From positions 1 to 64,000 of the forward strand of contig NZ_SJOP01000010.1 of the NCBI RefSeq assembly GCF_004331415.1: DNA of 64,000 nt. Reading direction: 5' to 3'. A program made the translations under genes and the position numbers. The notes beneath the pieces are model-generated. The model did no database searches. It worked only from the letters and a program-made list of their open reading frames with translations, and had not been told where the DNA came from. Positions within the stretch are counted from its first letter, which is position 1, and every line of letters begins with the position of its first letter. This document shows positions 5,995 to 59,165 of this stretch, one piece after another. This stretch comes from Kosakonia quasisacchari (GTDB taxonomy: Bacteria > Pseudomonadota > Gammaproteobacteria > Enterobacterales > Enterobacteriaceae).

Positions 5995-6004
5995 GGTTTT
6001 AATT

Positions 6005-6040
6005 TTTTGTATACAAAATAAATTAACGGTGTATACAAAA
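6005..6040. promoter_or_regulatory. Paired GTATAC operators in the hpxC-hpxS divergent region
   Basis: A perfect 14-bp palindrome TTTTGTATACAAAA lies at 6005-6018, and a second copy GTGTATACAAAA at 6029-6040, 22-24 bp centre to centre (about two helical turns). The TNGT-NN-ACNA form fits FadR-subfamily GntR operators. They sit between the hpxC and hpxS starts, so HpxS is the likely ligand and could control both directions. Further copies lie at 6800-6809 and 7289-7298. Confidence 0.7.
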
Positions 6041-6072
6041 ATGGATAAATTGAGTAACAAAGGAACGGTGTT

Positions 6073-7526: not shown

Positions 7527-7556
7527 AAGCGGCCCCGGTAAAGAGGTCGAATCAGC

Positions 7557-16081: not shown

Positions 16082-16136
16082 ATTTGTTCCGCTCTTTGGT
16101 ATGCTGCGCGCCAGTCTGATTATTCCGGGGGTTTAC

Positions 16137-43608: not shown

Positions 43609-43992
43609 TTACCCCATCACACTCACATGCGCCGCCACAATCCGCCAGCCCCACGGGAACTTCACCCAGGTCTGCATCTGGCGGCCAATTTTTTCGCTGT
43701 TTTCCCGCGTAAACTCGGTGCTCGCTACCGCCATATCATCGCCGAAGGTGGTGATAGTCGTATTGCGTAGCACGCGCTCAAGCCCGGCAGAAGGGCGCGC
43801 GTTGCGAAAATCGCGGATCGCGGCAATCCCGTACAGGTTTTCGGTTGCGCCGTAACGCACCGTGCGTTCGTCATCCCAGAACAACTCGTCCAGCACATCA
43901 ATATCGTTGCTGATAAGCGCCTGCTCATAACGGTAAAATGCGGTCGTCACTTCATTGAGGATCGCCGGGCGATCAACATTGTCTCGGTTCAT
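43609..43992 (-). CDS. hpxZ: HpxZ, AtzH-like (DUF3225) protein
   Basis: Small cone-shaped SnoaL/NTF2-like protein of the AtzH family. In Klebsiella it is the last gene of hpxWXYZ; AtzH of the cyanuric-acid pathway is reported as a dicarboxyurea-related amidohydrolase. From the ATG that overlaps the hpxY stop (ATGA) it has 127 residues, beginning MNRDNVDRPAILNEVTTAF. Conserved segments are LFWDDERTVRYGATENLYG and FPWGWRIVAAHVS. Fifteen further upstream codons overlap hpxY and are not needed. Its role in purine catabolism is unproven; coupling to hpxY suggests joint action on a ureido or oxalyl intermediate. Confidence 0.85.
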   Translation of the reverse strand: MNRDNVDRPAILNEVTTAFYRYEQALISNDIDVLDELFWDDERTVRYGATENLYGIAAIRDFRNARPSAGLERVLRNTTITTFGDDMAVASTEFTRENSEKIGRQMQTWVKFPWGWRIVAAHVSVMG

Positions 43993-45365
43993 GCTGCATC
44001 CTGTGGGAAAAGAAGACCGGCCTGCTCCAGCCGCCATGCCGCCTGTAAACAGTACGCTTCCTGCCAGGGCGCGGCAATAATCTGTACGCCTATCGGTAAA
44101 CCGCTGGCGGTTTTCAGCGCCACGGTCACTACCGGTAAGCCAAGAAAGGAGATCGGCTGCGTTAGCATGCCCATGCTCGCTTTCACCGGCAAATCGACGC
44201 CGTTAATATGCATCGTCTGTGCGCCAATTAGCGTGGCGCTGCAGGGCGTTGCCGGGGCTAACAGCAGGTCAACACCATCGAATAACGGTAGCGTTTTGTC
44301 GCGAAACCAGGCGCGAAACCGCTGTGCTTGTGTGTACCAGGCTGAGGGTGTCATCGCGCCCGCCAGCAGGCGTTCGCGCGAATTGGGTTCGAACGCGTCG
44401 GCATCGGTGCGCAGGGCTGGCAGATAGTGGTTGCCGCCTTCCGCCGCTGACAGCAAAAATGCCGCCGTTCGCGCCAGCTCTGCTTCCGGCAGCGTCATCG
44501 CATGGTCAGCATCCAGCGCTCGCGCCACACGTGCAACGGCCTGGCGGGCATCGTCATCGCACCAGCTCGCGAAATACCCCTCCAGTACGGCGCAGCGCAG
44601 CCTGCTTTCCCCATGCAACTGCGGCAAGGCGGTATCACTGGCGCGATCGGATTGCCAGCGATCGTCCGGATCGTAGCCTTGCAACGCGTCATACACGCGC
44701 GTCAAATCCTCAATGCTGCGCGCCAGTGGGCCGATATGGTCGAGGCTGGCGACAAACGGGTGGCTACCGCTGCGCGACAGGCGACCAAATGTCGGTTTCA
44801 GCCCGTTAATGCCACACAGCGAGGCGGGCACGCGAATTGATCCGTTGGTATCGCTGCCGAGCGAGAAATTGACCATTCCCGCCGCGACAGCCGCCGCCGA
44901 GCCACCGGAAGAACCGCCCGCAATACGCTGTGGATCGCGCGGGTTGTGCGTTGCACCGTAGTGGCTGTTTTCGGTGGTGAAACCATAGGCGTAGGCATCC
45001 ATATTCAGCGCCCCGGCGAGCATCGCACCCGCGCTCGCCAACCGGTGAACCGCAAAAGCATCTGCCTTTGCGGGCGGTTGCTGGCTGAAGAGTTTCGCTC
45101 CGGCAAGCGTGGTGACGCCTTCGATATCAAACAGGTTTTTCACCGCATAGGGTACGCCCGCCAGCGCGGGCAATGGTTCGCCATTGGCGACTTGCCGGTC
45201 GAGTTGCGTCGCTTCCGCCAGCAGCCGCGTGGCTGTGATGCCAGTAAAGGCGTTGAGGCGCGGATTGTCGCGCTCAATGCGCGCCAGCGTCTGCTGTGCC
45301 AGTTCGCTGGCGCTAAAGGTTTTTTCCCGCAGGCCACGCTGAATATCAGCAATTGATAAATTCAT
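43989..45365 (-). CDS. hpxY: HpxY, AtzE-like amidase (amidase signature family)
   Basis: Predicted amidohydrolase acting on a small ureido or carboxy-amide compound. The 458-residue protein carries the Ser-cisSer-Lys triad: Lys76 in YAVKNLF, Ser152 in AGGSSGGSAAA and Ser176 in SDTNGSIRVP. It is close to AtzE, which works as an AtzG-AtzE heterotetramer, and the AtzG-like hpxX lies just upstream. Both ends are coupled by ATGA overlaps, to hpxZ downstream and to a 34-codon mini-gene upstream. That mini-gene is a diverged copy of this gene's own first 23 codons. Indole-acetamide or Glu-tRNA amidases are related but less likely. Confidence 0.87.
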   Translation of the reverse strand: MNLSIADIQRGLREKTFSASELAQQTLARIERDNPRLNAFTGITATRLLAEATQLDRQVANGEPLPALAGVPYAVKNLFDIEGVTTLAGAKLFSQQPPAKADAFAVHRLASAGAMLAGALNMDAYAYGFTTENSHYGATHNPRDPQRIAGGSSGGSAAAVAAGMVNFSLGSDTNGSIRVPASLCGINGLKPTFGRLSRSGSHPFVASLDHIGPLARSIEDLTRVYDALQGYDPDDRWQSDRASDTALPQLHGESRLRCAVLEGYFASWCDDDARQAVARVARALDADHAMTLPEAELARTAAFLLSAAEGGNHYLPALRTDADAFEPNSRERLLAGAMTPSAWYTQAQRFRAWFRDKTLPLFDGVDLLLAPATPCSATLIGAQTMHINGVDLPVKASMGMLTQPISFLGLPVVTVALKTASGLPIGVQIIAAPWQEAYCLQAAWRLEQAGLLFPQDAA

Positions 45366-45498
45366 AGCCGGTGCTCTCCTGCGCCTTGCTGACGGTGCGC
45401 CAGTTCGCAGGCGCTAACGTTTTTTCCCCGCAGACCGCGCTTGATCTCAGCAATCGATAAATTCATAACCGGTACTCCCCAGCACCTTCCTGGCGATG
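45297..45498. repeat. 101-bp imperfect tandem duplication at the hpxX-hpxY junction
   Basis: 45297-45397 and 45398-45498 align without gaps. On the minus strand each unit holds the end of hpxX (coding HRQxGAGExRL then stop) followed, across the overlap, by the first codons of hpxY. By eye about 19 of 101 positions differ, mostly third-codon changes in the hpxX part and more replacements in the hpxY part. So it is an old duplication, not an assembly stutter. Confidence 0.9.
45362..45466 (-). CDS. 34-codon mini-gene made by the hpxX/hpxY duplication
   Basis: ATG at 45466 opens a 34-residue frame: its first 23 residues copy the N-terminus of HpxY (MNLSIAEIKRGLRG... against MNLSIADIQRGLRE...) and its last 11 copy the C-terminus of HpxX (HRQQGAGEHRL against HRQEGAGEYRL). 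It starts in the hpxX stop (ATGA) and stops in the hpxY start (ATGA), so ribosomes ending hpxX would probably pass through it to reach hpxY. It may be only a translational relay, or a remnant. A folded function is unlikely but not excluded. It is in a different frame from hpxY. Confidence 0.6.
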   Translation of the reverse strand: MNLSIAEIKRGLRGKNVSACELAHRQQGAGEHRL

Positions 45499-45648
45499 CG
45501 GCAGCGTAAAGGTCATCAGCGGTTGTGCCATCGCGGCGATTCTGGTGAGCTGGATTTCCAGCTCGGCGCGGCGTGTGTCATCCAGCGGGACATCAAGCAG
45601 TTGTTCCATCAGCCGGATATAGGTCGGCCAGTCAAACATCGGGTTCAT
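45463..45648 (-). CDS. hpxX: HpxX, AtzG-like (DUF4089) small amidase subunit
   Basis: Short 61-residue alpha-helical protein, product MNPMFDWPTYIRLMEQLLDVP..., resembling AtzG and GatC. In the AtzEG complex such a chain wraps the amidase and completes the enzyme. The ATG chosen has 5-base spacing from an AAGGAG site that overlaps the hpxW stop; an ATG one codon earlier is too close. It ends TLPHRQEGAGEYRL with an ATGA overlap to the next frame. Klebsiella hpxX occupies the same place. Confidence 0.82.
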   Translation of the reverse strand: MNPMFDWPTYIRLMEQLLDVPLDDTRRAELEIQLTRIAAMAQPLMTFTLPHRQEGAGEYRL

Positions 45649-45657
45649 CATCGCTCC

Positions 45658-47241
45658 TTAAAATCCTGCTGCGCTGCCGTTACTGCGCGGATCGTACGCC
45701 CCTTCCAGCATGCCACTGGTGTGGCGCACAATCGCTCCTGCATGTCCGGTCGCTTCGCTCATTCCCGGCAGCCACTCGACGTCATGCCCCAACGCGCGTA
45801 GCGCCTGGAATGTCTCTTCGCTAAAACGCCCCTCCAGTTTCAGGCTCTCTGACGACTGTCCCCATGTGCGGCCCAACAACCAGCGTGGGGCGCAAACCGC
45901 CTCCTGCAATGGCATGCCCTGCATCACATGGCGGGTAAAAATGGCGGCCTGCGTTTGCGGCTGCCCGTCGCCACCCATGGTGCCGTAAACCAGCGTGCGC
46001 CCATCTTTCAGCCGCGCGGCGGCGGGGTTTAAGGTGTGGAACGGCTGTTTGCCCGGCATCAGCGCCAGCAGGTGTGACGGATCGAGACTAAAGGCCGCGC
46101 CACGGTTTTGTAGCAGCACGCCGCTTTCCGGCAGCACCACGCCGCTGCCAAATTCGTGGTAAATGCTCTGGATAAACGACACCGCCAGGCCGTTTTTATC
46201 GATAACCCCCATCCACACCGTATCGCCCGGCCCTTTTCCCTGGCCCCAGGGCGCGGCGCGCTGCTCATCGATGCTGGCAGCCAGTTGCTCCAGCGGTGCT
46301 TGTTCCAGCAGGCTCTGTACCGGCAGCGTGACGTGACGCGGATCGGTGATGTAGCGATCGCGCAGGCCGAAGGCCTTCTTGGTCGCTTCCACAATGCGGT
46401 GAATGGTTTGCACTTCGCTGGCCTGCGCCATCTCCAGATGGTCGGTAATCCCGAGGATAGCCAGCGATACCAGCCCCTGCGTTGGTGGCGTCATATTGAA
46501 AATTTCGCCCTGGCTGTGTGTCAGTTTCAACGGCACGCGGCGTTGGGCGCGATGGTTCGCCAGATCCTGAGCGGTAATGGGTAAACCCAACGTCTGCATT
46601 TCACTGGCAATTAACTGCGCCAGTGAACCGCGATAAAAGCTGTCCAGCCCTTCGGTGGCAAGCTGAGTCAGCGTGCGGGCGAGCTTCGGTTGGCAAAAAC
46701 GGCTGCCAGCCAGCGGGGCTTTACCTTGCGGTAAAAAGGTGTGCGCAAAACCGGGGATATCCACCAGTTCCGCATATTTACTTTGCGTGGCGCTGGCTTG
46801 CGACTGGGTGACCGGGATGCCGTCTGCGGCGTATCGAATTGCGTCCGCCAGTAGCCGTGAGAGCGGAAGCTGCCCGCCACCGAGCGCGGCGGAGACTTTC
46901 AGCGCCTCATCCCAGCCGCTGAGCGTGCCGGGTACGGTCAGCGCAGCAAGCGTACCGCGATGGGGGATCTGCGTGTGGCCCGCATAAAACTCGCATGTCG
47001 CCCGCTGCCCAGCCGCACCGCTGGCGTCGATGGCGAGCGGTTCGCCGTCAGGCGGCACAATCAACCAGAAGCCGTCACCGCCAATGCCGTTCATATGCGG
47101 GTAGGCCACCGCAATGGTTGCCGCTGCCGCTACCATCGCTTCAATCGCGTCACCGCCGTGGCGTAAAACCGACAATGCCGATTCGCTGGCGAGATGGTGT
47201 GGCGTTACCGCCATACCGGAGGGGGCCATATTACTTTGCAT
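45658..47241 (-). CDS. hpxW: HpxW, oxamate amidohydrolase (gamma-glutamyltransferase fold)
   Basis: Ntn-hydrolase that converts oxamate to oxalate and ammonia at the end of urate catabolism in Klebsiella. From the ATG with an AGGAA ribosome-binding site it has 527 residues; upstream codons cover the promoter. There is no signal peptide, so it is cytosolic, unlike periplasmic Ggt. Self-cleavage is expected before Thr341 in the KGPGDTVWMG motif, giving a large and a small chain. Other family features are GGDAIEAMVAAA, NGIGGDGFW, SFIQSIYHEFGSGVV and TMGGDGQPQTQ. First gene of hpxWXYZ, with a sigma-54-type promoter upstream; divergent from the RpiR regulator. Confidence 0.88.
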   Translation of the reverse strand: MQSNMAPSGMAVTPHHLASESALSVLRHGGDAIEAMVAAAATIAVAYPHMNGIGGDGFWLIVPPDGEPLAIDASGAAGQRATCEFYAGHTQIPHRGTLAALTVPGTLSGWDEALKVSAALGGGQLPLSRLLADAIRYAADGIPVTQSQASATQSKYAELVDIPGFAHTFLPQGKAPLAGSRFCQPKLARTLTQLATEGLDSFYRGSLAQLIASEMQTLGLPITAQDLANHRAQRRVPLKLTHSQGEIFNMTPPTQGLVSLAILGITDHLEMAQASEVQTIHRIVEATKKAFGLRDRYITDPRHVTLPVQSLLEQAPLEQLAASIDEQRAAPWGQGKGPGDTVWMGVIDKNGLAVSFIQSIYHEFGSGVVLPESGVLLQNRGAAFSLDPSHLLALMPGKQPFHTLNPAAARLKDGRTLVYGTMGGDGQPQTQAAIFTRHVMQGMPLQEAVCAPRWLLGRTWGQSSESLKLEGRFSEETFQALRALGHDVEWLPGMSEATGHAGAIVRHTSGMLEGAYDPRSNGSAAGF

Positions 47242-47282
47242 CGTCACGCTTCCTGTTTTCTGCGGGTAAGTGCAGAACACTA

Positions 47283-47298
47283 AGCAAGAGCTGTTCCA
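47283..47298 (-). promoter_or_regulatory. Sigma-54 (-24/-12) promoter of hpxWXYZ
   Basis: The minus strand reads TGGAACAGCTCTTGCT: GG and GC at exactly 12-base spacing, and only one departure from the TGGCAC...TTGC consensus core. The predicted start near 47272 gives a 31-base leader to the hpxW ATG. The adjacent GTTTCA (47312) ... TGAAAC (47334) inverted repeat may bind the divergent RpiR protein. Confidence 0.7.
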
Positions 47299-47359
47299 GA
47301 TTGACGACGGGTGTTTCACTGTGTCAGCTTAGCCTGAAACAAAAGTTGCAGGAGAAGCT

Positions 47360-48199
47360 ATGCAGCAGCTGGATGAGCGTTTACGGGCGAGCTTTGACGA
47401 GCTATCCCCACAGGAACAACGGATTGCCTCATTTATCATTGATCATTTCGACGATCTGGTGAGTTACAACAGCGCCGAGCTGGCGCGCTTGAGTGGCGTA
47501 TCGAAAGCCACCGTCAGCCGTTTGTTTAAGCGGTTGGGCTATGATCGTTTCAAAGAGATGCGCGATGAGCTGCGCACGCTGCGCCAGAGCGGTATGCCGC
47601 TGACCGAGAATCGCGATGCGGTGCAGGGCAACACGCTCCTGGCGCGCCATTACAAGCAGGAGATGGCGAATCTGACGCTGTGGGTCAATACGCTGGATGC
47701 CGGGCAATTCGCCGAAATCGTCACCGCACTCAACACGGCGAAGCGGGTTTTTATTATGGGTCTGCGTAACAGCGCGCCTGTGGCACTTCACCTGCGCCAG
47801 CAACTGCTGCAAAGCCGTGGTCAGGTGCTGCTAATGCCGCAGCCTGGGCAGACGCTGGCGGAAGAGGTGGTCGATATCACCCCGCAAGATATGGTGGTGG
47901 TGGTGGCTTTTCGCCGCCGCCCGCGCGTGGTGCGCCCGCTGCTGGAAGTGCTGCATCAGCAGGGCATTCCGTTGCTAGCAATCAGTGAACCACAGGCGGC
48001 CAGCATTAAGTCGCTGTGCCGCTGGCACATCGGTTTGCCGCTGGAGAGCGTCTCCGCGTTCGACAGCTACAGCAGCGCCATGAGCCTGGTTAATTTGCTG
48101 TCTAATGCCGTGCTGCACACTGCGCTGAGCGAAGGGCGTCAGCGCATCCACAACATCGCTGCCCTGTATGGAGAACTGGATGAGCTTGAACAACGCTAA
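47360..48199 (+). CDS. RpiR/MurR-family transcriptional regulator
   Basis: Predicted regulator of the flanking hpxWXYZ and hpxJK operons. The 279-residue protein has an N-terminal HTH_6 domain (about 1-77; NSAELARLSGVSKATVSRLFKRLGYDRF contains the recognition helix) and a SIS domain (about 120-255; VFIMGLRNSAPVALHLR, DITPQDMVVVVAFRRRPR) that usually senses a phosphorylated or anionic metabolite. Start has a CAGGAGA ribosome-binding site. Klebsiella carries a regulator gene (hpxU) beside hpxWXYZ; I am not certain it is the same family member, so no symbol is given. Confidence 0.85.
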   Translation: MQQLDERLRASFDELSPQEQRIASFIIDHFDDLVSYNSAELARLSGVSKATVSRLFKRLGYDRFKEMRDELRTLRQSGMPLTENRDAVQGNTLLARHYKQEMANLTLWVNTLDAGQFAEIVTALNTAKRVFIMGLRNSAPVALHLRQQLLQSRGQVLLMPQPGQTLAEEVVDITPQDMVVVVAFRRRPRVVRPLLEVLHQQGIPLLAISEPQAASIKSLCRWHIGLPLESVSAFDSYSSAMSLVNLLSNAVLHTALSEGRQRIHNIAALYGELDELEQR

Positions 48200-48239
48200 T
48201 GCACCATAACGGTGCTTTTGCACCAGGGTAATGTGTTAT

Positions 48240-48266
48240 GACGGGGCGTTTATCGCCCCGTTTTCT
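48240..48266 (+). terminator. Terminator of the RpiR regulator gene
   Basis: ACGGGGCG / CGCCCCGT stem with a TTTAT loop followed by TTTTC, 41 bp after the regulator stop. It insulates the sigma-54 promoter of hpxJK. Confidence 0.88.
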
Positions 48267-48322
48267 TTGGTATTTGCGTATGAAATAACAGCGATTCAGC
48301 GCTGGTGTCGATTTTTTGTCTG

Positions 48323-48338
48323 TGGCACATTAGTTGCA
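48323..48338 (+). promoter_or_regulatory. Sigma-54 (-24/-12) promoter of hpxJK
   Basis: TGGCACATTAGTTGCA matches the TGGCAC-N5-TTGCA consensus perfectly, with GG and GC 12 bases apart. The predicted start near 48349 gives a 53-base leader to hpxJ. Upstream NtrC-type activator sites were not recognised with confidence. ATGAAAT (48280) and TTTCAT (48363) flank it and could be regulator half-sites. Confidence 0.82.
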
Positions 48339-48401
48339 GAAATTAATTTAAAGAATCTTTCGTTTCATATCGTACGCAGTTGCAGACTAAAGGACGCGCC
48401 C

Positions 48402-49640
48402 ATGTTTGATTTTCAGCAGTTCCCGCAAATTAATCCACCTTCGCGCCTGTTGATGGGGCCTGGGCCAATCAACGCCGACCCGCGTGTACTGCGGGCGATG
48501 GCGAGCCAGTTGGTGGGGCAATACGATCCGGTAATGACCGGCTATATGAACGAAGTCATGGTGCTCTACCGCGAAGTGTTTCGCACCGAAAACCGCTGGA
48601 CGATGCTGGTGGATGGCACCTCGCGCGCGGGTATTGAGGCGATCCTCGTTTCTGCCATTCGGCCTGGCGATAAGGTGCTGGTGCCGGTGTTTGGCCGTTT
48701 TGGTCATCTGCTGTGTGAAATTGCCCGCCGCTGTCGCGCTGAAGTCCACACCATTGAGGTGCCGTGGGGCGAGGTGTTTAGCCCGGATCAGATTGAAGAT
48801 GCGATTGTTCGCATCAAGCCGCGTTTGCTGTTAACGGTGCACGGCGATACCTCGACCACTATGCTGCAACCGTTGGAGCAATTCGGTGAGATTTGCCGCC
48901 GCCACGATGTGCTGTTTTATACCGATGCGACCGCCTCGCTCGGCGGTAATCCGTTAGAAAGCGATGCGTGGGGGTTAGATGCCGTTTCCGCCGGGCTGCA
49001 AAAATGCCTGGGCGGCCCGTCGGGCAGCTCGCCTGTTACCCTGAGCCCACGGATGGAAGCGGTGGTGCGGGCGCGCAAATGCGTAGAACAAGGCATTCGC
49101 ACCGAGGCGCATCAGGACGGCGCAGAGGAGATGATTTACTCCAACTATTTCGATCTCGGCATGGTGATGGATTACTGGGGGCCGGAACGTCTGAATCACC
49201 ACACGGAAGCGACCAGCATGCTGTTCGCCGCCCGCGAATGCGCGCGCATTATGCTCGAAGAGGGCATGGATAAGCTGATTGCGCGCCACGAACTGCACGG
49301 GCGCGCAATGCTGGCGGGCATCCAGGGCATGGGGCTGGAAGTATTTGGCGATATTCAGCACAAGATGAACAACGTACTCGGTGTGCAAATCCCGCGGGAA
49401 GTGCATGGCGAAGAGGTACGTAAACGTCTGCTGGATGATTTCCACATTGAGATTGGCACCTCGTTTGGCCCGTTGCAGGGCAAGATCTGGCGCATCGGCA
49501 CCATGGGGTATAACGCGCGCAAAGATTGCGTGCTGCAAACGCTAACGGCGCTGGAAGCGGTGCTGAACCGTCTGGGTTTTCGCACCGTACAGGGTGCGGG
49601 TATGCAGGCGGCATGGGACATTTACGAAGGAGCCAGTTAA
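48402..49640 (+). CDS. hpxJ: Ureidoglycine-glyoxylate aminotransferase HpxJ
   Basis: PLP enzyme (class V, alanine-glyoxylate aminotransferase-like, PucG type) that transfers the amino group of unstable S-ureidoglycine to a 2-oxo acid, giving oxalurate. From the ATG giving MFDFQQFPQINPPSRLLMGPGP it has 412 residues; the 57-codon extension upstream would cross the promoter and terminator. PLP lysine is Lys201 in SAGLQKCLGGPSG; other motifs are DGTSRAGIEA, HGDTSTT and DATASLGG. It overlaps hpxK by one base, and HpxK makes its substrate, so channelling of ureidoglycine is plausible. Confidence 0.9.
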   Translation: MFDFQQFPQINPPSRLLMGPGPINADPRVLRAMASQLVGQYDPVMTGYMNEVMVLYREVFRTENRWTMLVDGTSRAGIEAILVSAIRPGDKVLVPVFGRFGHLLCEIARRCRAEVHTIEVPWGEVFSPDQIEDAIVRIKPRLLLTVHGDTSTTMLQPLEQFGEICRRHDVLFYTDATASLGGNPLESDAWGLDAVSAGLQKCLGGPSGSSPVTLSPRMEAVVRARKCVEQGIRTEAHQDGAEEMIYSNYFDLGMVMDYWGPERLNHHTEATSMLFAARECARIMLEEGMDKLIARHELHGRAMLAGIQGMGLEVFGDIQHKMNNVLGVQIPREVHGEEVRKRLLDDFHIEIGTSFGPLQGKIWRIGTMGYNARKDCVLQTLTALEAVLNRLGFRTVQGAGMQAAWDIYEGAS

Positions 49641-50890
49641 TGATGACGTCTTTCGATGCCGCGCAAGCCGCCAGCCGGGTTATGCAGCGCTGTGATGCGC
49701 TGGCGCAAATCAGCGAAACGCCGGGGCAACTCACCCGCGTTTATCTCTCGCCTCAGCATTTGCAGGCAAATGCGCTGGTTGCCGGGTGGATGCAGCAGGC
49801 GGGGATGCACACCTGGCAGGATGCGGTCGGCAATATATTTGGCCGTTACGAGGGTGTCGAAGCGGGTGCCCAGGCGCTGCTGCTCGGTTCACATCTTGAT
49901 ACCGTGCGCGATGCCGGGCGTTACGACGGGATGCTTGGCGTGCTGGCGGCGATCGAAGTCGTCGAGGGTCTGCATCGGGCCAACCTACGGGGCAGACAGG
50001 CTATTGAGATTGTCGGTTTCGCCGACGAAGAGGGCACGCGGTTTAATATCGCGCTGCTTGGCAGCCGTGGGCTGACCGGCAGTTGGCCGCAAACGTGGCT
50101 GGCCTGTGAAGATACGCAGGGCGTCAGCGTGGCGCAGGCGCTGGAACAGGCCGGGTTGGATCCCGCGCAGATTGCCAATGCGCAGCGCCCGGTCGCGGAT
50201 TTTTCCGCCTACCTTGAGCTGCATATTGAACAGGGGCCGGTGCTGGAACAAGCGGATCTGGCGCTCGGCGTGGTCACGGCCATCAACGGTGCGCGACGGC
50301 TCAGTTGCCGTTTTACCGGCGAGGCCGGACACGCCGGTACGGTGCCGATGCGTCATCGCCGCGATGCGCTGACGGCCGCCGCCGAATGGATACAGATTAT
50401 CGAACAGGCAACGATCGAGGCCGGGCCAGAGATGGTCGCTACCGTCGGCACGTTACAATGCGAACCCGGCGCGGTAAATGTGATCCCCGGCGCGGTGGGG
50501 CTTACGCTGGATATCCGCAGCCCGCAGGATGATAAACGCGAAGCGTTGCTCAATCACTTACTGGACGAAGCAAACCGCATCGCGCAGCAACGTAGGCTTG
50601 AGTTCCGCCACGACATTTTTTACACCATCGCCGCTACGCCGTGCGATATGCCATTGCGTGAAGAGCTGGCCGATGCGGTACACACCGTGCAGGGGAAGGT
50701 TTTATCTCTGCCGAGTGGCGCGGGGCATGATGCTATCGCCATTGCGGAACGCTGGCCTTCAGCCATGCTATTCGTGCGTTGCCATAAAGGCATCAGCCAT
50801 CACCCGGCGGAAAGCGTGGCCTGTAGCGATGTCGCCCAGGCGCTGCGCGCCCTGAGTCTTGCGGTAGGGCGGCTTATTCACACGGAGTAG
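49640..50890 (+). CDS. hpxK: Allantoate amidohydrolase HpxK
   Basis: Hydrolyses allantoate to S-ureidoglycine, ammonia and CO2. Dinuclear-metal M20/hydantoinase-carbamoylase family member of 416 residues. Metal-binding segments are LLLGSHLDTVRDAGRYDGMLG, FADEEGTRFNIALLGSRGLTG, LELHIEQGPVLE and SGAGHDAIAIA. The first ATG shares its A with the hpxJ stop (TAATG); a second ATG follows directly. A longer frame beginning at 49526 runs inside hpxJ and is not real. It takes the product of HpxB, encoded in the other hpx half. N-carbamoyl-amino acid hydrolase is the alternative. Confidence 0.9.
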   Translation: MMTSFDAAQAASRVMQRCDALAQISETPGQLTRVYLSPQHLQANALVAGWMQQAGMHTWQDAVGNIFGRYEGVEAGAQALLLGSHLDTVRDAGRYDGMLGVLAAIEVVEGLHRANLRGRQAIEIVGFADEEGTRFNIALLGSRGLTGSWPQTWLACEDTQGVSVAQALEQAGLDPAQIANAQRPVADFSAYLELHIEQGPVLEQADLALGVVTAINGARRLSCRFTGEAGHAGTVPMRHRRDALTAAAEWIQIIEQATIEAGPEMVATVGTLQCEPGAVNVIPGAVGLTLDIRSPQDDKREALLNHLLDEANRIAQQRRLEFRHDIFYTIAATPCDMPLREELADAVHTVQGKVLSLPSGAGHDAIAIAERWPSAMLFVRCHKGISHHPAESVACSDVAQALRALSLAVGRLIHTE

Positions 50891-51396: not shown

Positions 51397-52113
51397 ATGG
51401 AAAAACCGTCACGCTATCTGGCAAATTCCAGTACAGCGCTTGAACAACTTCGTGGGCTGATTCACCAACATGAGTCAACACCAGGGACTCCTCTGCCTAC
51501 GGAACGTGAGCTGGCGGAAACGCTGGGTATTGGGCGACGGGAAGTGCGTCGTGCGCTGGACGTGCTGGAAGAAGAGGGGCGAATCTGGCGTAAGCAGGGC
51601 AAAGGCACGTTTATTGGCCCTGCGGCACCGGTCGCGTCTCACGCACTACAGGGACTCGTGCAACAAACCAATATGCTGGAAGTGATGGAAGCCCGTTTGC
51701 AGATTGAACCCGGTCTTGCACGGCTGGCGGCGCTTCGTGCCAGCCCGGAAAACCTGGCGCTAATGCAACGCATGCTGGAACGCATCGACAACGTTAACCC
51801 GGATGATCCGGATCTGAATGAGCTGTGGGACAGCGCTTTTCACCGGGCTATCGCCGAGGCGGCAGGAAACCGTCTGATGCTCGGTCTTTTTGACACCCTT
51901 GACGCGGTGCGGCGCGAACCGGCCTGGCACCATCTGCGTGAACTGGCGCGAACGCCAGCGAAAGTGGATCGCTACAACGATCACCATCACCGCATCATGA
52001 TCGCTATTCGCCAGCGCCAGCCACATGAGGCGGCGACGGCGATGCGTGAACACTTGCTCGACCTGCAACACGCCTTGATTCAGGCCATTCATCTTGAGGA
52101 CGATACCCCATGA
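51397..52113 (+). CDS. GntR/FadR-family regulator of the ABC-hydrolase operon
   Basis: A 238-residue protein with an N-terminal winged helix (about 10-75; TPLPTERELAETLGIGRREVRRALDVLEEEGRI) and a C-terminal FCD domain (about 90-230) with likely metal-binding His and Asp residues in WDSAFHRAIAEAAGN and NDHHHRIM. It resembles HpxS in plan but is clearly a different protein. It overlaps the first ATPase gene by ATGA, so it is the first cistron of the operon it probably controls. The effector is likely the imported compound or its hydrolysis product. Confidence 0.85.
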   Translation: MEKPSRYLANSSTALEQLRGLIHQHESTPGTPLPTERELAETLGIGRREVRRALDVLEEEGRIWRKQGKGTFIGPAAPVASHALQGLVQQTNMLEVMEARLQIEPGLARLAALRASPENLALMQRMLERIDNVNPDDPDLNELWDSAFHRAIAEAAGNRLMLGLFDTLDAVRREPAWHHLRELARTPAKVDRYNDHHHRIMIAIRQRQPHEAATAMREHLLDLQHALIQAIHLEDDTP

Positions 52114-53123
52114 CGACGATCCCGTTTAAAGAGGCTGCGCCGGTGCTCCGCTTGCATAACCTGGAGGTGCAGTTTGCTGGCAGCCCGGTGAGCGTGCTGG
52201 ACAGAATTTCGCTCACCGTCAAAGGTGGAGAAACGCTGGCGCTGGTGGGGGAGTCCGGCTGCGGTAAAAGCATTACCTCGCTGGCGCTGATGGGGCTCCT
52301 GCCCGCCAGCGCACAGATCCTTGGCGGAGAGATGCAGTTTCGCGACCATAACTTGCGTCAACTCTCTCCGCGCGAATATGCCGACCTGCGCGGCAACGAA
52401 CTGGCGATGATTTTCCAGGAACCGATGACCTCGCTCAACCCGGCATTTACGCTCGGTGACCAGCTCAGTGAAGCGGTGATACGCCACCAAAATGTATCGG
52501 CGAAAGCGGCGCACGAGGCGGCGCTTCGCATCCTGGAAAAAGTGCAGATCCCGGCGGCGGAGATGCGTCTGAAAGCGTATCCACACCAGCTTTCCGGCGG
52601 TATGCGCCAGCGGGTGATGATCGCGATGGCACTCATCAACAAGCCGCGCCTGTTAATTGCCGACGAACCGACAACCGCACTGGATGTAACAATTCAGGCG
52701 CAGATCCTCGCGCTGCTCAATACCATGAAAGCCGAAACCGGCACCGCCGTATTGATGATCACCCACGATCTCGGTGTGGTGGCGGAAGTGGCGCAGCAGG
52801 TGGCGGTGATGTACGCCGGACAAGTGGTGGAGCAGGGCAGCGTGGAGGCGATTTTTGCCGATCCGCAGCACCCGTACACCATTGGCCTGATGGGATCGAT
52901 CCCTTCGTTGGGCGCGCGAAAAGGGCAACTGTCGACCATTCCCGGCGCGGTGCCGCTGCCGGAAGCGATGCCGCAAGGCTGCCGTTTCGCTACCCGCTGC
53001 CCGTTTGCGCAGCCGCGCTGCCTGGAGCAAAAACCCCCACTGACACCGCAAGGGAAAGGCCATCTGGTGGCCTGTTTCCGCGTCCCTCTTGAACAGCACA
53101 TCGCGCTGGGAGAAACCGCATGA
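52110..53123 (+). CDS. ABC transporter ATPase, DppD/OppD type
   Basis: Cytosolic ATPase of a peptide/nickel-type importer. The 337-residue protein has Walker A GESGCGKS (47-54), Q-loop FQEPMTSLNP, signature LSGGMRQR, Walker B LLIADEPTTALD, H-loop THDLGVV and a C-terminal oligopeptide-type domain with the Cys pattern GCRFATRCPFAQPRCL that in relatives binds an iron-sulfur cluster. ATGA overlaps at both ends tie it to the regulator and to the second ATPase. Substrate is not deducible from the ATPase. Confidence 0.9.
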   Translation: MTTIPFKEAAPVLRLHNLEVQFAGSPVSVLDRISLTVKGGETLALVGESGCGKSITSLALMGLLPASAQILGGEMQFRDHNLRQLSPREYADLRGNELAMIFQEPMTSLNPAFTLGDQLSEAVIRHQNVSAKAAHEAALRILEKVQIPAAEMRLKAYPHQLSGGMRQRVMIAMALINKPRLLIADEPTTALDVTIQAQILALLNTMKAETGTAVLMITHDLGVVAEVAQQVAVMYAGQVVEQGSVEAIFADPQHPYTIGLMGSIPSLGARKGQLSTIPGAVPLPEAMPQGCRFATRCPFAQPRCLEQKPPLTPQGKGHLVACFRVPLEQHIALGETA

Positions 53124-54187
53124 GTACGCCGATTCTCGAAGCTCATGATCTGAGCAAACGTTTTGCCGGGCCAACCCGCCTGTTTGCACCAAAACGTTAT
53201 CTTACTGCCGTCGATCGTATTTCGCTGGCGGTGTACCCCGGCGAAACGCTGGCAATTGTCGGTGAGTCTGGCTCTGGAAAATCGACCCTTGGCCGCCTGT
53301 TGCTCCGCTTGCTGGCAGCGTCCGAAGGTCGCGTTTACTACCAGGGTGAGGAGATCACTCACGCCAGCGGTGCGCGCTTAAACCAGCTCCGGCGCGAGCT
53401 GCAAATTATCTTTCAGGATCCGTTTGCTTCGCTGAACCCGCGTATGACCGTGGAGCAAATTGTCGGCGAGCCGCTGTGGTTGCACCAGAAAATGGGCAAA
53501 GCGGAGCGCCAGGCTCGGGTCGCGGAGCTGCTCGGCACCGTCGGCCTGCCTGCCGCCTGGGCCAGACGCTACCCGCACGAGTTTTCCGGCGGCCAGCGCC
53601 AGCGTATTGGCATTGCCCGCGCGCTGGCTTCCGGGCCGAAATTGCTGCTTGGCGATGAACCAGTTTCCGCGCTGGATGTGTCGGTGCAAGCGCAGGTGGT
53701 AAACCTGCTGGAGAAGCTGAAGCAACAGCTTGGCTTAACGATGATCATTGTTGCGCACGGGCTAGCGGTGATCCGCCATATGAGCGATCGCGTGGCGGTG
53801 ATGTACCTTGGGCAAATAGTGGAAATGGCAACGGTGGATGAGATCTTCGATGCGCCGCTGCACCCGTATACCCAGGCGCTGATCGCGTCCGCACCGCAGC
53901 CGCAACCCGGCATTGTGCGTGAAACGCCGCTGTTACAGGGCGATTTACCCAATCCCTCCAGCCCGCCGCAGGGCTGTCGTTTTCACACTCGCTGTCCGTT
54001 TGCGACAGACGAGTGCCGTCAACACGAGCCCATTACTCAGGTGCTCGAAGGCGGTCGCCAGGTTTCTTGTCATCGCTGGCAAGAGATTAACCGCGACCGC
54101 AGCGTGATTCAGATTGCTCCCCCCTCAGCCGCGTTTTTGCGCCGTCGCGCGCTGTTTGAATACGCGGCCTCTCACTCCTCCCCTTAA
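53120..54187 (+). CDS. ABC transporter ATPase, DppF/OppF type
   Basis: Second ATPase of the importer, 355 residues. Walker A is GESGSGKST (48-56), Q-loop FQDPFASLNP, signature FSGGQRQRIGIARAL, Walker B LLLGDEPVSALD. The H-loop reads IVAHGLAVI: the His is kept but the usual following Asp is Gly. A C-terminal GCRFHTRCPFATDECR motif matches the partner ATPase. The last 30 residues after the family domain are extra and basic. It ends 11 bp before the binding-protein gene. Confidence 0.9.
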   Translation: MSTPILEAHDLSKRFAGPTRLFAPKRYLTAVDRISLAVYPGETLAIVGESGSGKSTLGRLLLRLLAASEGRVYYQGEEITHASGARLNQLRRELQIIFQDPFASLNPRMTVEQIVGEPLWLHQKMGKAERQARVAELLGTVGLPAAWARRYPHEFSGGQRQRIGIARALASGPKLLLGDEPVSALDVSVQAQVVNLLEKLKQQLGLTMIIVAHGLAVIRHMSDRVAVMYLGQIVEMATVDEIFDAPLHPYTQALIASAPQPQPGIVRETPLLQGDLPNPSSPPQGCRFHTRCPFATDECRQHEPITQVLEGGRQVSCHRWQEINRDRSVIQIAPPSAAFLRRRALFEYAASHSSP

Positions 54188-54198
54188 AGGAAACAATA

Positions 54199-55713
54199 AT
54201 GATGATGCGAAATTCGCTTTTGACCGTTCTGGGAAGTGTCATGTTGCTGGGCGCGGCATTGCCTGCTCAGGCTGAAAGTGTGCTGCGCGTGGGTCTTGGC
54301 GCGGATCCGGATATGCTCGATCCGCACCTGGCGCGTACTTACTATGGCCGTTTTGTCTTCGCTTCGCTGTGCGACCGGCTGGTGGACGTGGATGAAAACC
54401 TGAAAGTGGTGCCGGGGCTGGCGAAAGCCTGGTCGTGGAGCGAGGATGGCAAAACCCTGACCATGGATCTGCGTGAGGGCGTGACTTTTCACGATGGCGA
54501 GAAGTTTGACGCCGCAGCGGCGAAATTCAGTCTTGACCGTGCGCTGACGCTGCCGGGTTCGCTGCGTAAAAGTGAAATCTCTTCGATCGAGTCCGTGGAG
54601 GTCAACGGGCCGATGCAAATCAAGCTGCATTTGAAAACGCCGGACTCGGCGTTGCTGATGCAATTAACCGATCGCGCCGGCGCGATGCTGGCCCCAAATG
54701 CGGCGAAGAAAGCGGATTTCGCCGCCCACCCGGTGTGTTCCGGCCCGTATAAATTTGACAGCCGCGTTTCACAAGATCGCATTGTGTTGTCGCGTTTTGA
54801 CAACTACTGGAACAAAGGCGCGTACCACTTCGACAAAGTTATCTACCTGCCGATCCCGGATGCCTCCGTACGACTGGCGAACCTGCGTGCGGGCGATCTC
54901 GATCTGACCGAAGGGATTGCCGCCAGCGATGTGAAAACCGTAGAGGCCGATAGCAAACTGCAACTGGCGAAAGTGACAGGGCTGGGGTATCAGGGCATCA
55001 CGTTTAATATCAATAACGGCAAAGTCCCGGCCAACGATCCGTTCAAAGATGCGCGCGTGCGCGAGGCGTTCTCGCTGGCGATTGACCGCGAGGCGCTCAA
55101 CCAGGTGGTATTCGAAGGGTTATACGCCCCGGCGAATCAGGCGTTTTCGCCTGTCAGCCCGTATCACGTCAAACTGCCGGTGCCGCCGCGCGATGTGGAA
55201 AAAGCCAAAGCCTTGTTGCAAGCGGCAGGAGTGAAGACGCCGCTCACCGTCTCACTGCTGGTGCCGAACAACCCGACGTCGCAGCAGGTTGGCCAGGTGC
55301 TGCAGGCGATGACTGCCGAAGCGGGTTTCAACGTCAATCTGCAAATGACCGAATTTGCCACCCTGCTGGACAGGCAGCAAACCGGCGATTTTCAGCTTAG
55401 CTATTCCGGCTGGTCTGGTCGCCCGGATCCCGATGGCAGCATCTTCGGCTTCATCAATAGCAAAGGCACGCTCAACGATGGTCGCTACAGCAACCCGCAG
55501 GTGGATGAGTGGTTGACGCAGGCGCGTTTGCACAACGATCCGGCAACCCGGCAGGCATTGTATGAAAAGGTCGTGAAACAGTTGCAAACGGATATGCCGA
55601 TTGCCTACCTCTACTTTGAGCCGCGCCTGTTTGGGCTGAACAAGAAAGTGCAGGGCTTCAAACCCTACCCGGACGGCATTGTGCGCCTGGCGGGTCTGTC
55701 GCTCGCCAACTAA
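54199..55713 (+). CDS. Periplasmic substrate-binding protein, SBP family 5
   Basis: Family 5 (DppA/OppA/GsiB-like) binding protein of 504 residues, delivering substrate to the permease pair. A signal peptide ends LPAQA (cleavage about 25/26). The body starts ESVLRVGLGADPDMLDPHLA and contains the family signature region GLAKAWSWSEDGKTLTMDLREGVTFHDG. Three ATGs occur in a row; the first has best spacing to AAAGGA. There is no lipobox. The linked hydrolase suggests a gamma-glutamyl, oxamyl or other amide substrate rather than a generic dipeptide. Confidence 0.9.
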   Translation: MMMRNSLLTVLGSVMLLGAALPAQAESVLRVGLGADPDMLDPHLARTYYGRFVFASLCDRLVDVDENLKVVPGLAKAWSWSEDGKTLTMDLREGVTFHDGEKFDAAAAKFSLDRALTLPGSLRKSEISSIESVEVNGPMQIKLHLKTPDSALLMQLTDRAGAMLAPNAAKKADFAAHPVCSGPYKFDSRVSQDRIVLSRFDNYWNKGAYHFDKVIYLPIPDASVRLANLRAGDLDLTEGIAASDVKTVEADSKLQLAKVTGLGYQGITFNINNGKVPANDPFKDARVREAFSLAIDREALNQVVFEGLYAPANQAFSPVSPYHVKLPVPPRDVEKAKALLQAAGVKTPLTVSLLVPNNPTSQQVGQVLQAMTAEAGFNVNLQMTEFATLLDRQQTGDFQLSYSGWSGRPDPDGSIFGFINSKGTLNDGRYSNPQVDEWLTQARLHNDPATRQALYEKVVKQLQTDMPIAYLYFEPRLFGLNKKVQGFKPYPDGIVRLAGLSLAN

Positions 55714-55734
55714 ACGGTAACGCCTGGAGAAACC

Positions 55735-56679
55735 ATGCTGGAATTGATTTGCAAACGCCTGCTGCTCGCCGTTCCGACCCTGCTGCTGGTCAGCATGATG
55801 GTGTTCGGGCTGCAAAAGCTGCTGCCCGGCGATCCGCTAACGGCAATGCTGGGCGAGGAGCGCGATCCGGCGGTCATCGCCCAGTTGCGTGCGGAGCTGA
55901 ACCTGGATGCGCCGATTCCGGTGCAGTACTTTCACTGGCTGACTCGCGCGTTGCAGGGCGATCTTGGCGTCTCGTTGCGCACACAGGAGCCGGTAACGCA
56001 CCTGATTGCCACCAAGCTGCCGGTGACGCTGGAGATGTCGCTACTGGCGATGGTCATTGCGCTGCTGTTCGGTATCAGCATGGGCATTCTGGCGGCGGTG
56101 AACAAGAATAGCTGGATCGATCACGGCGCCAACTTTGTGGCTATCTCCGGCATTTCGGTGCCGCACTTCTGGCTGGGGATCCTGCTGATCCTCATTTTTT
56201 CCGTCAACCTGCAATGGCTGCCCGCCTCGGGTTTTGTGCCGTTTAGTGAAGATCCGTTGCAGAACCTGCGTACATTGTTGTTGCCTGCGCTGGTGCTGGG
56301 AACGGGGCTGGCGGCAACGTTAATGCGCCATACCCGCGCGTCGATGATTGCGGTACTGAAAGCGGATTATATTCGCACTGCGCGCGCCAAGGGGTTGCTG
56401 CCAAAAGCGGTGATCATGAAACATGCGTTTCGTAATGCGCTGGTGCCGGTGATTACCCTCACCACGCTGCTGTTTGGCGAGCTGCTGGGTGGCGCGGTGC
56501 TGACCGAGCAGGTGTTCACCATTCCTGGTTTCGGCAAGATGATTGTCGACTCGGTATTCAACCGGGACTACGCGGTGGTGCAGGGCGTGGTGCTGGTGGT
56601 GGCGATTGGGTTTCTCGCGCTGAATCTGCTGGCGGATGTGCTGTATGTGTTAATCAACCCGAAAATGCGGAGCGAATAA
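55735..56679 (+). CDS. ABC transporter permease, DppB/GsiC type
   Basis: Inner-membrane permease of 314 residues with about six membrane segments. The first lies at residues 9-30 and is followed by the family N-terminal signature PGDPLTAMLGEERDP. The EAA loop for ATPase contact is around DYIRTARAKGLLPKAVIMKHAFRNALVP. It shares one base with the next permease gene (TAATG). The DppB/GsiC order and lengths are typical. Confidence 0.92.
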   Translation: MLELICKRLLLAVPTLLLVSMMVFGLQKLLPGDPLTAMLGEERDPAVIAQLRAELNLDAPIPVQYFHWLTRALQGDLGVSLRTQEPVTHLIATKLPVTLEMSLLAMVIALLFGISMGILAAVNKNSWIDHGANFVAISGISVPHFWLGILLILIFSVNLQWLPASGFVPFSEDPLQNLRTLLLPALVLGTGLAATLMRHTRASMIAVLKADYIRTARAKGLLPKAVIMKHAFRNALVPVITLTTLLFGELLGGAVLTEQVFTIPGFGKMIVDSVFNRDYAVVQGVVLVVAIGFLALNLLADVLYVLINPKMRSE

Positions 56680-57554
56680 TGGCCGAACTGTCCACCACCG
56701 GCGTGGCGGCATCGCTGCCACGTACAGAAAACCGGGTGCTGAAAAAATTCCTCGCTAACCGTAGCGCGGTCATTGGTGCGGTGATTGTCGGCGTGTTTGT
56801 GCTGATTGCACTGCTCGCACCGTGGATCGCGCCGTTTGATCCGGTCAAGGCGAACTTTCTGGCAGTACGCAAACCCCCTTCCGAGCTTTACTGGTTCGGC
56901 ACCGATGAGCTGGGGCGCGATATTCTCTCACGCATGATTTGGGGCGCGCGCACTTCGCTGTTGGCGGGGTGCGTGTCGGTAGTGATCGCGGTCGCGATCG
57001 GTGTACCGCTCGGCTTGCTGGCGGGCTACTTTCAGGGCATCTGGGACGGCGTGATTTCCCGCGTTATCGAAGCGCTGCTCGCCTGTCCGTTCCTGATTAT
57101 GGCGATTGCACTGGGGGCGTTTCTTGGCCCCAGCCTGACCAACGCGATGATCGCCATTGGCTTGTCGGCGATGCCTATCTTTGCCCGCCTGACGCGCGGC
57201 CAGGTGATCGCGATTCGTAACGAAGAGTACATCGACGGCGCGCGGGCGATTGGTCTGCCGGATCGTTGGATCATCGTGCGCTACGTGCTGCCGAATGTGA
57301 TGTCGCCGATCCTCGTGCAGGCTACGCTGGCGATCGCTTCGGCGATCATTACCGAAGCGAGCCTCTCGTTTCTCGGCCTCGGCCAGCAGCCACCGTACCC
57401 GTCGTGGGGCGCGATGCTGAACACGGCGAAGGGCTTTCTGGAACAGTCGCCCTGGATGTCTATTTTCCCCGGTGTGGCCATCTTTCTGACCGTGCAGGGA
57501 TTTAATTTACTCGGCGACGGGCTGCGCGATGCGCTCGATCCGCGCCACGACTAA
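56679..57554 (+). CDS. ABC transporter permease, DppC/GsiD type
   Basis: Second permease, 291 residues, with an N-terminal segment at about 28-50, the FGTDELGRDILSRMIWGARTSL signature and the EAA loop in EYIDGARAIGLPDRWIIVRYVLPNVMSP. It pairs with the preceding permease. The hydrolase gene follows after 9 bp, so all six cistrons appear to be one transcript. Confidence 0.92.
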   Translation: MAELSTTGVAASLPRTENRVLKKFLANRSAVIGAVIVGVFVLIALLAPWIAPFDPVKANFLAVRKPPSELYWFGTDELGRDILSRMIWGARTSLLAGCVSVVIAVAIGVPLGLLAGYFQGIWDGVISRVIEALLACPFLIMAIALGAFLGPSLTNAMIAIGLSAMPIFARLTRGQVIAIRNEEYIDGARAIGLPDRWIIVRYVLPNVMSPILVQATLAIASAIITEASLSFLGLGQQPPYPSWGAMLNTAKGFLEQSPWMSIFPGVAIFLTVQGFNLLGDGLRDALDPRHD

Positions 57555-57563
57555 GGAGTTTTG

Positions 57564-59165
57564 ATGACCAAGCCGATTGATTTCAAAGTTAATTATGCAT
57601 CGTATCGCGCGCCGATGATCGGCCGCAACGCAGTCGCAACCTCACAGCCACTGGCGGCGCAGGCCGGGATGCGTATGCTCGCACTCGGTGGTAACGCGGT
57701 GGATGCGGCGATTGCCACCGCGATGGCATTAACGGTTGTTGAACCGACCGGCTGCGGGATCGGCAGCGATGCATTCGCCATTGTCTGGGACGGCAAAGAA
57801 CTCCACGGATTGAATGCCTCCGGGCGTTCGCCAGCGAGCTGGCATGCGGATATGTTCGCGGGGAAAACGGCAGTGCCAGAACTGGGCTGGGATGCGGTCA
57901 CTGTGCCGGGCGCGGTATCCGGTTGGGTGGCGCTGGCGGAACGTTTTGCCACACTGCCGCTGACCACGCTGGCGCAGCCGGCCATTGAGTATGCGCGCAA
58001 TGGTTTTCCCGTTTCGCCGTTGATTGGCCATTTGTGGCAGCGCGGCTACCACAAACTGAAAGATCAGCCGGGTTTTAGCGCCTGCTTTGCACCGGAAGGG
58101 CGCGCACCGAAGATCGGCGAAATTTTCCGTAACCCGGCGCAGGCGCGCACGCTGGAGCTTATTGCGCAGACTAATGGTGAAGCATTTTATCGCGGTGAGC
58201 TGGCACAGAAGATTGCCGCATTCGCCAACGCACACGGCGCGCACCTGAGCGAAGCGGACCTGGCGAATCATAAAGCCGATTGGGTTACGTTGCTGTCGCG
58301 TGAGTTTGCCGGTGGCTCCGTACAAGAGTTACCACCGAACGGGCAGGGGATCGCCACGCTGATTGCACTCGGCATCCTTGAACAGTGTGATATTGCTCAT
58401 CACCACCCGGACTCAGTGCAGTCTCAGCATCTTGCCATTGAAGCCATGAAGTTGGCGCTGGCCGATCTTGATCGCTATGTTGCCGACGACGAGCACCTGG
58501 AGTTTGCCGCAGAACTGCTGCTCAGTGACGACTATCTGAAATCGCGTGCGGCGCTGATCGACCCGGATAACGCGTCTGATTTTGTCTATGGCGCACCGAC
58601 GCAAAGCGGTACGGTTTACCTTTCTACCGCCGATGCCAGCGGCATGATGGTGTCGTTTATTCAGTCCAACTTTATGGGTTTTGGCTCCGGCGTTGTGGTG
58701 CCGGAAACCGGCATCAGCCTGCAAAACCGGGGCTGCGGTTTTGTGCTTGATCCAAAACACCCGAATGCGCTGGCGGGCAGCAAACGCCCGTTCCATACCA
58801 TTATTCCTGGTTTTGCGATGGGCGCAGATGGCAAACCGCTCATGTCGTTTGGCGTGATGGGCGGGCCAATGCAGGCGCAGGGTCATTTGCAAATGGCGCT
58901 ACGCATTATGCTGCACGGGCAAAACCCGCAGGCGGCGATCGACGCGCCGCGCTGGCGAGTTGTGCAGGGCAGAGAGGTGTCCGTTGAAGCGAGTTTTGAC
59001 CGTAACGTCATTGCCGCATTACGCGAGCGCGGGCATGTGATAACGGTGGAAGATCCGCTGGCGGGCTATAACTTTGGCGGTGCGCAGGTCATTTACCGGA
59101 TGCCGGAAGGCCACTACGTCGCAGCAACAGAGAGCCGCAAAGACGGGCAGGCGTTGGTGAGCTGA
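57564..59165 (+). CDS. Gamma-glutamyltransferase-fold Ntn-hydrolase linked to the ABC importer
   Basis: A 533-residue Ntn-hydrolase with no signal peptide, so it should act in the cytosol on what the importer brings in. The start codon ATG follows AAGGAG; a TTG one codon before is less likely. Self-processing is expected before Thr350 in TQSGTVYLS. Family segments include LGGNAVDAAIATAMAL, GIGSDAFAIVW, SFIQSNFMGFGSGVVVPETG and GVMGGPMQAQGH. It is a paralogue of HpxW (both keep SFIQS...FGSGVV.PE.G). It belongs with YwrD-like enzymes rather than classical periplasmic Ggt. Oxamate-like amides or gamma-glutamyl compounds are possible substrates. Confidence 0.85.
   Translation: MTKPIDFKVNYASYRAPMIGRNAVATSQPLAAQAGMRMLALGGNAVDAAIATAMALTVVEPTGCGIGSDAFAIVWDGKELHGLNASGRSPASWHADMFAGKTAVPELGWDAVTVPGAVSGWVALAERFATLPLTTLAQPAIEYARNGFPVSPLIGHLWQRGYHKLKDQPGFSACFAPEGRAPKIGEIFRNPAQARTLELIAQTNGEAFYRGELAQKIAAFANAHGAHLSEADLANHKADWVTLLSREFAGGSVQELPPNGQGIATLIALGILEQCDIAHHHPDSVQSQHLAIEAMKLALADLDRYVADDEHLEFAAELLLSDDYLKSRAALIDPDNASDFVYGAPTQSGTVYLSTADASGMMVSFIQSNFMGFGSGVVVPETGISLQNRGCGFVLDPKHPNALAGSKRPFHTIIPGFAMGADGKPLMSFGVMGGPMQAQGHLQMALRIMLHGQNPQAAIDAPRWRVVQGREVSVEASFDRNVIAALRERGHVITVEDPLAGYNFGGAQVIYRMPEGHYVAATESRKDGQALVS

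Follow-up and report, generated by a model that had tools for sequence, protein, structure and literature searches.

A sigma-54 promoter that may double as a repressor operator in the hpx region of Kosakonia quasisacchari

Sigma-54 promoters are usually described as being governed by activation from a distance. Those of glnK-amtB, our control set, carry a -24/-12 box and an NtrC palindrome, which lies 98 to 123 bp upstream in 25 of 30 controls, and the hpx region described here is alike in both respects; it differs in that glnK spacers are free and lack a GTTGCA, whereas the hpx box is proposed to serve as a repressor site too. The hpx locus of Klebsiella pneumoniae (L044) is closer still, with the same genes around hpxU, an HpxU that is 71% identical, both -24/-12 elements, and counterparts of the three candidate operators O1, O2, and O3 described below. 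It differs in holding hpxFGHI between hpxU and hpxJ, whereas the lineage of our window has these genes at a yeiE-like locus with a promoter copy of their own. Guzman et al. (2013, Int Microbiol 16:165, cited in PMC7828314 and PMC10810197) describe HpxU in their title as a repressor of the RpiR type, and that paper may already report operators or sigma-54 promoters. HexR, another member of the RpiR family, shares the HTH_6 plus SIS architecture, and the available part of PMC5902321 likewise places its operators near the start site, but gives them as TTGT-N7/8-ACAA, whereas the hpx sites read TGMAAC-N4-GTTKCA and one proposed copy falls within a sigma-54 core promoter. In the literature searched, from which most subscription papers were absent, the text available mentioned neither an HpxU operator nor a -24/-12 box with a repressor operator inside it. 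Novelty is lowered because HpxU was already known, and our comparison suggests that the new parts are the operator embedded in a core promoter and the copied control module at an unlinked transporter operon.

The window, by which we mean the whole 64-kb stretch of DNA analyzed, contains hpxU (47360-48199, + strand), encoding a 279-aa RpiR-family regulator recognized by its HTH_6 (PF01418, 43.2 bits) and SIS (PF01380, 37.2 bits) domains, both over cut-off, and by synteny; the gene has the position of an HpxU orthologue, between hpxW and hpxJ/hpxF beside allantoate genes. On its right lie hpxJ (48402-49640, + strand), a class-V aminotransferase gene whose top PDB match is the ureidoglycine-glyoxylate aminotransferase 3nnk (E 4e-235), and hpxK (49640-50890, + strand), for allantoate amidohydrolase (NF006773 over cut-off). 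To the left, all on the - strand, are hpxW (45658-47241), a gamma-glutamyltranspeptidase-family hydrolase gene by family models whose product we take to be oxamate amidohydrolase, an hpxX-like small ORF of 62 aa picked by eye from the sequence (45463-45651), hpxY (43989-45365), for an AtzE-family amidohydrolase (AtzE models over cut-off), and hpxZ (43609-43992), for the oxalurate catabolism protein HpxZ (NF033625 over cut-off). The name HpxZ was given by a model, while yeiE, lysP, and the remaining hpx letters are names we presume to apply. The order hpxZ-Y-W / hpxU / hpxJK or hpxFGHIJK is conserved, with a few gaps, among the 80 related loci introduced below. Farther away, 4454-8498 holds genes for an hpxA-like permease, an hpxS-like GntR regulator, an hpxC-like racemase, and an hpxB-like PuuE-type allantoinase (7557-8498); an allantoinase of the TIGR03178 type gave no match over cut-off. 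At 45295-45496 a 101-nt unit is directly repeated in tandem with 81% identity, covering the beginning of hpxY and the end of the hpxX-like ORF. Beside hpxK, 51397-59165 carries genes for a GntR-family regulator, a dipeptide/glutathione-type ABC transporter, and a second gamma-glutamyltransferase-like protein, and a GntR gene is also found 3' of hpxK in L010, L011, L021, L036, and L052. The window also encodes a CsrB/RsmB small RNA at 15726-16084 (Rfam RF00018, 301.8 bits).

A preliminary description of this DNA had placed a perfect -24/-12 element, TGGCACATTAGTTGCA (48323-48338, + strand), before hpxJ and a one-mismatch element, TGGAACAGCTCTTGCT (47283-47298, - strand), before hpxW, both directed away from the RpiR gene. 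The positions and strands proved right, and these are the sigma-54 elements of hpxJK and hpxWXYZ, respectively. With the consensus TGGCAC-N5-TTGCW, in which the GG and GC of the two boxes stand at fixed spacing, a weighted score with a maximum of 15 was computed at 127,970 positions in the window, of which two reached 15 and four reached 14; the hpxJ element scores 15 and the hpxW element 14. The second site with the full score (7253-7268, + strand) falls within the coding region of the hpxC-like gene, some 290 bp ahead of the allantoinase gene, and was not accepted as a promoter. Because a perfect match can thus also occur within a coding sequence, a match by itself is weak proof. The plain pattern with at most two mismatches gave 62 matches in the window versus 46.8 expected. 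The -12 box ends 63 nt before the start codon of hpxJ and 41 nt before that of hpxW, and if transcription starts about 11 nt past the -12 box the leaders would measure about 52 and 30 nt, in agreement with the 30 to 55 nt proposed earlier. The genome also has rpoN (TIGR02395 over cut-off, contig C41).

What decides the matter is conservation. Among the best 80 of 224 HpxU relatives from named genomes, a non-random sample with many close kin, both elements have counterparts in 80/80 loci, always in the same outward orientation. The top score in the gap 3' of hpxU, for a box pointing to the next operon, is 15 in 73 loci and 14 in the other 7, and that in the hpxU-hpxW gap, pointing to hpxW, is 14 in 72 and 13 in 8. 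A score of 14 is reached by 0.25% of shuffled right gaps and a score of 13 by 1.0% of shuffled left gaps, and random windows of equal length taken from real loci reach these scores in 2.2% and 6.8%, respectively. Even the single deviation of the hpxW element, C to A in TGGAAC, is kept in 76/80 loci. Both -24/-12 elements are thereby confirmed as real.

The link to nitrogen starvation that had been suggested for oxamate as well as allantoate use finds good support on the allantoate side. A perfect NtrC-type palindrome, GCACC-N5-GGTGC, at 48200-48216 (TGCACCATAACGGTGCT), found by pattern and matrix, starts 122 bp upstream of the hpxJ -24 box, within the 100 to 200 bp where such sites had been anticipated and at the usual distance, and has the top NtrC score of the 64-kb window. 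An intrinsic-terminator-like hairpin, a consensus match only, lies 3' of hpxU between this site and the hpxJ promoter (48240-48262, + strand). The NtrC palindrome consensus was checked against glnK-amtB promoters, for which boxes upstream of amtB were taken as glnK promoters (30 loci out of 32 matches); all 30 have an NtrC site. In the 300 bp preceding the right-hand promoter the palindrome is present with at most two mismatches in 77 of 81 loci, the window included, the exceptions being L040, L053, L057, and L074, versus 16% of mononucleotide shuffles. With a matrix built solely from the glnK-amtB control sites, the right-hand NtrC site ranks first in its own locus in 66/80. At hpxW, on the oxamate side, the expectation was not upheld, as the matrix found no site of its own 40 to 400 bp upstream, the rank being worse than third in the locus in 79/80. 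Pattern matches with two mismatches do occur in the 400 bp upstream of hpxW in 36/81 loci versus 20% of shuffles, but many of them read GCGCC-N5-GGCGC, a G+C-rich string in hpxU codons, and an NtrC site for hpxW was rejected. Since hpxWXYZ lacks a site of its own, its nitrogen control would have to rely on the enhancer some 0.9 kb distant or on a different activator. Judged from these sites, nitrogen control of the allantoate side via sigma-54 and NtrC is well supported.

Comparison of the promoters revealed a second conserved block, AGAATCTTTTGTTTCA, mostly 29 to 30 bp past where the -24 box starts, together with sites similar to TGYAACTTTYGTTTCA upstream of hpxU. These blocks resemble a palindrome, TGMAAC-N4-GTTKCA, of which we propose three copies as candidate HpxU operators. 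O3 (47335-47350), a perfect copy recognized in the related loci as well, ends 9 nt before the hpxU start codon; it is present in the hpxU-hpxW gap in 80/80 loci, with no mismatch in 14, one in 64, and two in 2, and stands 8 to 14 nt before hpxU in 73 loci and 19 to 124 nt before it in 7. O2 (48352-48367; AGAATC-TTTC-GTTTCA), proposed from the window and the comparison, lies downstream of the -12 box, close to the predicted hpxJ transcription start, and is found in 80/80 loci at no more than three mismatches (two in general, three once), its left half deviating from the palindrome in every locus. O1 would be embedded in the hpxJ -24/-12 element itself (48323-48338; TGGCAC-ATTA-GTTGCA), 29 bp from O2 start to start and two mismatches from the palindrome. 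Any TGGCAC-N4-GTTGCA box would carry the same two mismatches, and the case for O1 rests on its GTTGCA half, its spacing, and the relocated cases. In two small groups the core bases of O1 and O2 change together, ATTC with ATTC (L019, L022) and AATC with AATC or AATA (L037, L061). The RpiR protein had been put forward as the pathway-specific control of both operons, and operator-like sites at hpxU and at the hpxJ promoter fit that idea, but the hpxW box fits the operator poorly, with three mismatches in 75/80 loci. HpxU would be the reader of these palindromes, judging by their location and co-occurrence.

The overlap of O1 with the core promoter was examined in 127 promoters (the window, the 80 loci, and 46 transporter loci), 114 of them distinct. 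In 99 of the 114 the GTTGCA half is embedded and there is no separate O1; in 14 GTTGCA is lacking and a palindrome separate from the box, no more than one mismatch off, lies 28 to 30 bp from O2; one (L106) has both, and none has neither. A separate O1 arises in 0.04% of shuffles. Embedded O1 sites stand 29 bp (82 cases) or 30 bp (16 cases) from O2, separate ones 30 bp (8), 29 bp (6), or 28 bp (1). Two more values are 34 and 41: in L113 O2 reads GTTTCG at 29 and was overlooked by the rule used, and L106 has its perfect separate O1 at 29 bp from O2. The distance between O2 and the -24/-12 box, by comparison, is 51 to 54 bp in the Pectobacteriaceae type and 41 bp in the Pluralibacter type. As the O1-O2 spacing is constant while the box-O2 spacing varies, O2 keeps its distance to O1 and not to the box, although few independent events are involved, because the named cases with a separate O1 come from one family, the Pectobacteriaceae, and from Pluralibacter.

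A complementary case is G078 (L209/L235), in which the -24 box reads TGATTC while the GTTGCA half of O1, O2, and O3 are retained; no NtrC site was found near the former promoter, hpxW does not occur in the 12 kb read, and the genome still has rpoN. In G017 (L236), hpxW and the left-hand box are both missing from the 15 kb read, and the right-hand box, a two-mismatch NtrC-like site, and O3 are retained. The palindrome alone is unspecific, with 88 places at no more than one mismatch versus 67 for a reversed control, and specificity is claimed for the composite only. That composite, GTTGCA-N13-16-GAAYC-N4-GTTTCA, was found at 35 places in 30 of the 149 genomes searched, while its reversed control was found at none. 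In all 30 loci opened, one per genome, it precedes hpxFGHI (19) or hpxJK (11), preceded in turn by TGGCAC in 29 of them, all but G078. We regard it as likely that one 16-bp sequence, TGGCACATTAGTTGCA, is at once the sigma-54 core promoter and a repressor operator, paired with O2 29 to 30 bp downstream, that the two roles have been separated in Pectobacteriaceae and in the transporter promoters of Pluralibacter, where O1 is separate, that only the operator role is left in one genome, and that NtrC and HpxU signals would be combined as they compete directly for the core promoter.

The genome of the window accounts for two places of the composite, and its second, one of five second places overall, is the promoter of an unlinked transporter. 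A search of this genome with the intergenic DNA as query had given an unexpected 46-bp match (91%) to 48323-48368 on another contig, before the genes of an amino-acid-type ABC transporter (L004:6076-8958, G000:C11, - strand) for a solute-binding protein, two permeases, and an ATPase, which correspond to hpxFGHI by homology and by this promoter-operator copy. They are flanked by a yeiE-like gene of the LysR family on one side and a lysP-like permease gene on the other and are not contiguous with hpxJK, whereas the gene for the binding protein follows hpxU in 48/80 loci; L075 ends inside that gene, and L078 has just this one transporter gene before hpxJ. Among the 31 genomes of the window's clade in which no binding-protein gene follows hpxU (L036 left out), the transporter lies elsewhere in 16 and was not found in 15 at E <= 1e-60. 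All 16 relocated transporters adjoin a LysR-family gene and have a -24/-12 box and O2, and with the family sample included an NtrC-like site is present in 19/19 distinct relocated promoters, 12 of them with two mismatches only. In a quick, midpoint-rooted tree of HpxU plus HpxJ, the unlinked rows fall within one group of 32 (SH-aLRT 99) except for L062, which is a separate loss, and among named relatives Kosakonia oryzendophytica is closest to the window. The simplest reading is one move of the transporter followed by several losses, of which counts alone are no proof. By homology and by the shared promoter-operator module the ABC transporter appears to belong to the allantoate pathway, and the operon would have been split, yet its regulation retained through a copied control region. 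The preliminary description mentions neither the operators, nor their overlap with the hpxJ box, nor this third promoter copy. Several hpx or transporter genes of L021, L091, L127, L034, and L076 match piecewise in different frames, which may be sequencing error; the completeness of G028, the genome of L091, is given as 49%.

Taken as a whole, the hpxU region is quite probably a two-signal switch for the use of allantoate and oxamate as nitrogen sources. Without inducer, HpxU would occupy O1 and O2 and bar sigma-54 RNA polymerase from the promoter, while at O3 it would limit its own synthesis. A pathway intermediate, acting via the SIS domain, would free the DNA of HpxU, and under nitrogen shortage phosphorylated NtrC would act from 48200-48216 to activate the freed sigma-54 complex, so that both signals would be required and would converge on one 16-bp stretch. 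The promoter of hpxW would likewise depend on sigma-54, perhaps sharing the enhancer 0.9 kb away, and in the lineage of the window hpxFGHI would have left the operon and taken a copy of the promoter-operator along. We rely on the published title for HpxU being a repressor, and its binding to the hpx promoters is what we infer from sequence. Looping between O3 and O1/O2 across hpxU was considered but found no support, as the O3-O2 distances vary (51 distinct values, 982 to 2543 bp), and no significant helical phase was found in these distances at the four periods tried (Rayleigh p 0.07 to 0.75). If the switch operates as proposed, a scarcity signal (NtrC) and a food signal (HpxU) compete for the same 16 letters. 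The comparison suggests that a local repressor competes for the very -24/-12 box, and nature offers cases where the functions are separated; the hpx system would be a ready-made, testable case of repression combined with enhancer-dependent activation.

One might instead suppose that these are plain sigma-54/NtrC promoters on which HpxU forms a roadblock at O2 only, the GTTGCA ending of the box being inherited chance. O2 alone sits near the predicted start, the embedded O1 is two mismatches off the palindrome, and the left-hand box, which has no proposed operator, keeps its spacer at 5.62 bits versus 7.62 bits for the right-hand one (80 loci), so that part of the spacer conservation reflects kinship of the sample. 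Still, the glnK promoters of the same group vary freely, with 20 distinct spacers in 30, and GTTGCA occurs in none of those 30 versus 72/80 right-hand sites; spacer conservation amounts to 3.52 bits in these 30 glnK promoters versus 5.63 bits in 30 transporter promoters of the family sample. Each of the 14 distinct promoters without GTTGCA carries a separate palindrome whose spacing from O2 is unchanged, and GTTGCA persists where the -24 box is gone. A roadblock at O2 only seems unlikely to us on this evidence, and an operator embedded in the core promoter is the reading that we prefer.

It is far less probable that the palindromes are read by another regulator, for instance one of the LacI family, as PtxS of Pseudomonas reads TGAAACCGGTTTCA, and that HpxU acts elsewhere. 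The half-site TGAAAC is indeed not peculiar to RpiR proteins, going by the part of PMC5902321 available, but O3 recurs in every hpxU-hpxW gap of the sample and mostly just before hpxU, the composite precedes hpxFGHI or hpxJK wherever a locus was opened, and hpxFGHI was accompanied by the sites when it moved. Hardly credible at all is the view that the sigma-54 elements are chance matches and that hpxJ and hpxW are read from ordinary sigma-70 promoters. The perfect match within hpxC and the one relative that has lost the element speak for such a view; against it stand two oriented elements conserved in the full sample, an NtrC site at the classical distance, and the result of a simple consensus scan, in which the sole sigma-70-like match in 47200-48450 falls inside hpxU.

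Beyond the two known promoters, the half-operator pattern RAHCTTTYGTTTCA has two further exact matches in the genome of the window, four in all, as well as 17 one-mismatch matches that include the O3 site. Neither of the two further matches was accepted as an HpxU target: L183 lies inside an ORF, and L184 is surrounded by similar CTTTC repeats without an O1 partner. These CTTTC-type repeats (L184:2376-2389, G000:C41:168875-168888) resemble half an HpxU operator and are probably sites of another regulator. The gap in which they occur separates a DeoR-family-like regulator gene from a divergent aldolase-subunit-like gene, and the match stands 17 to 30 bp upstream of the likely start of the DeoR-family-like gene.
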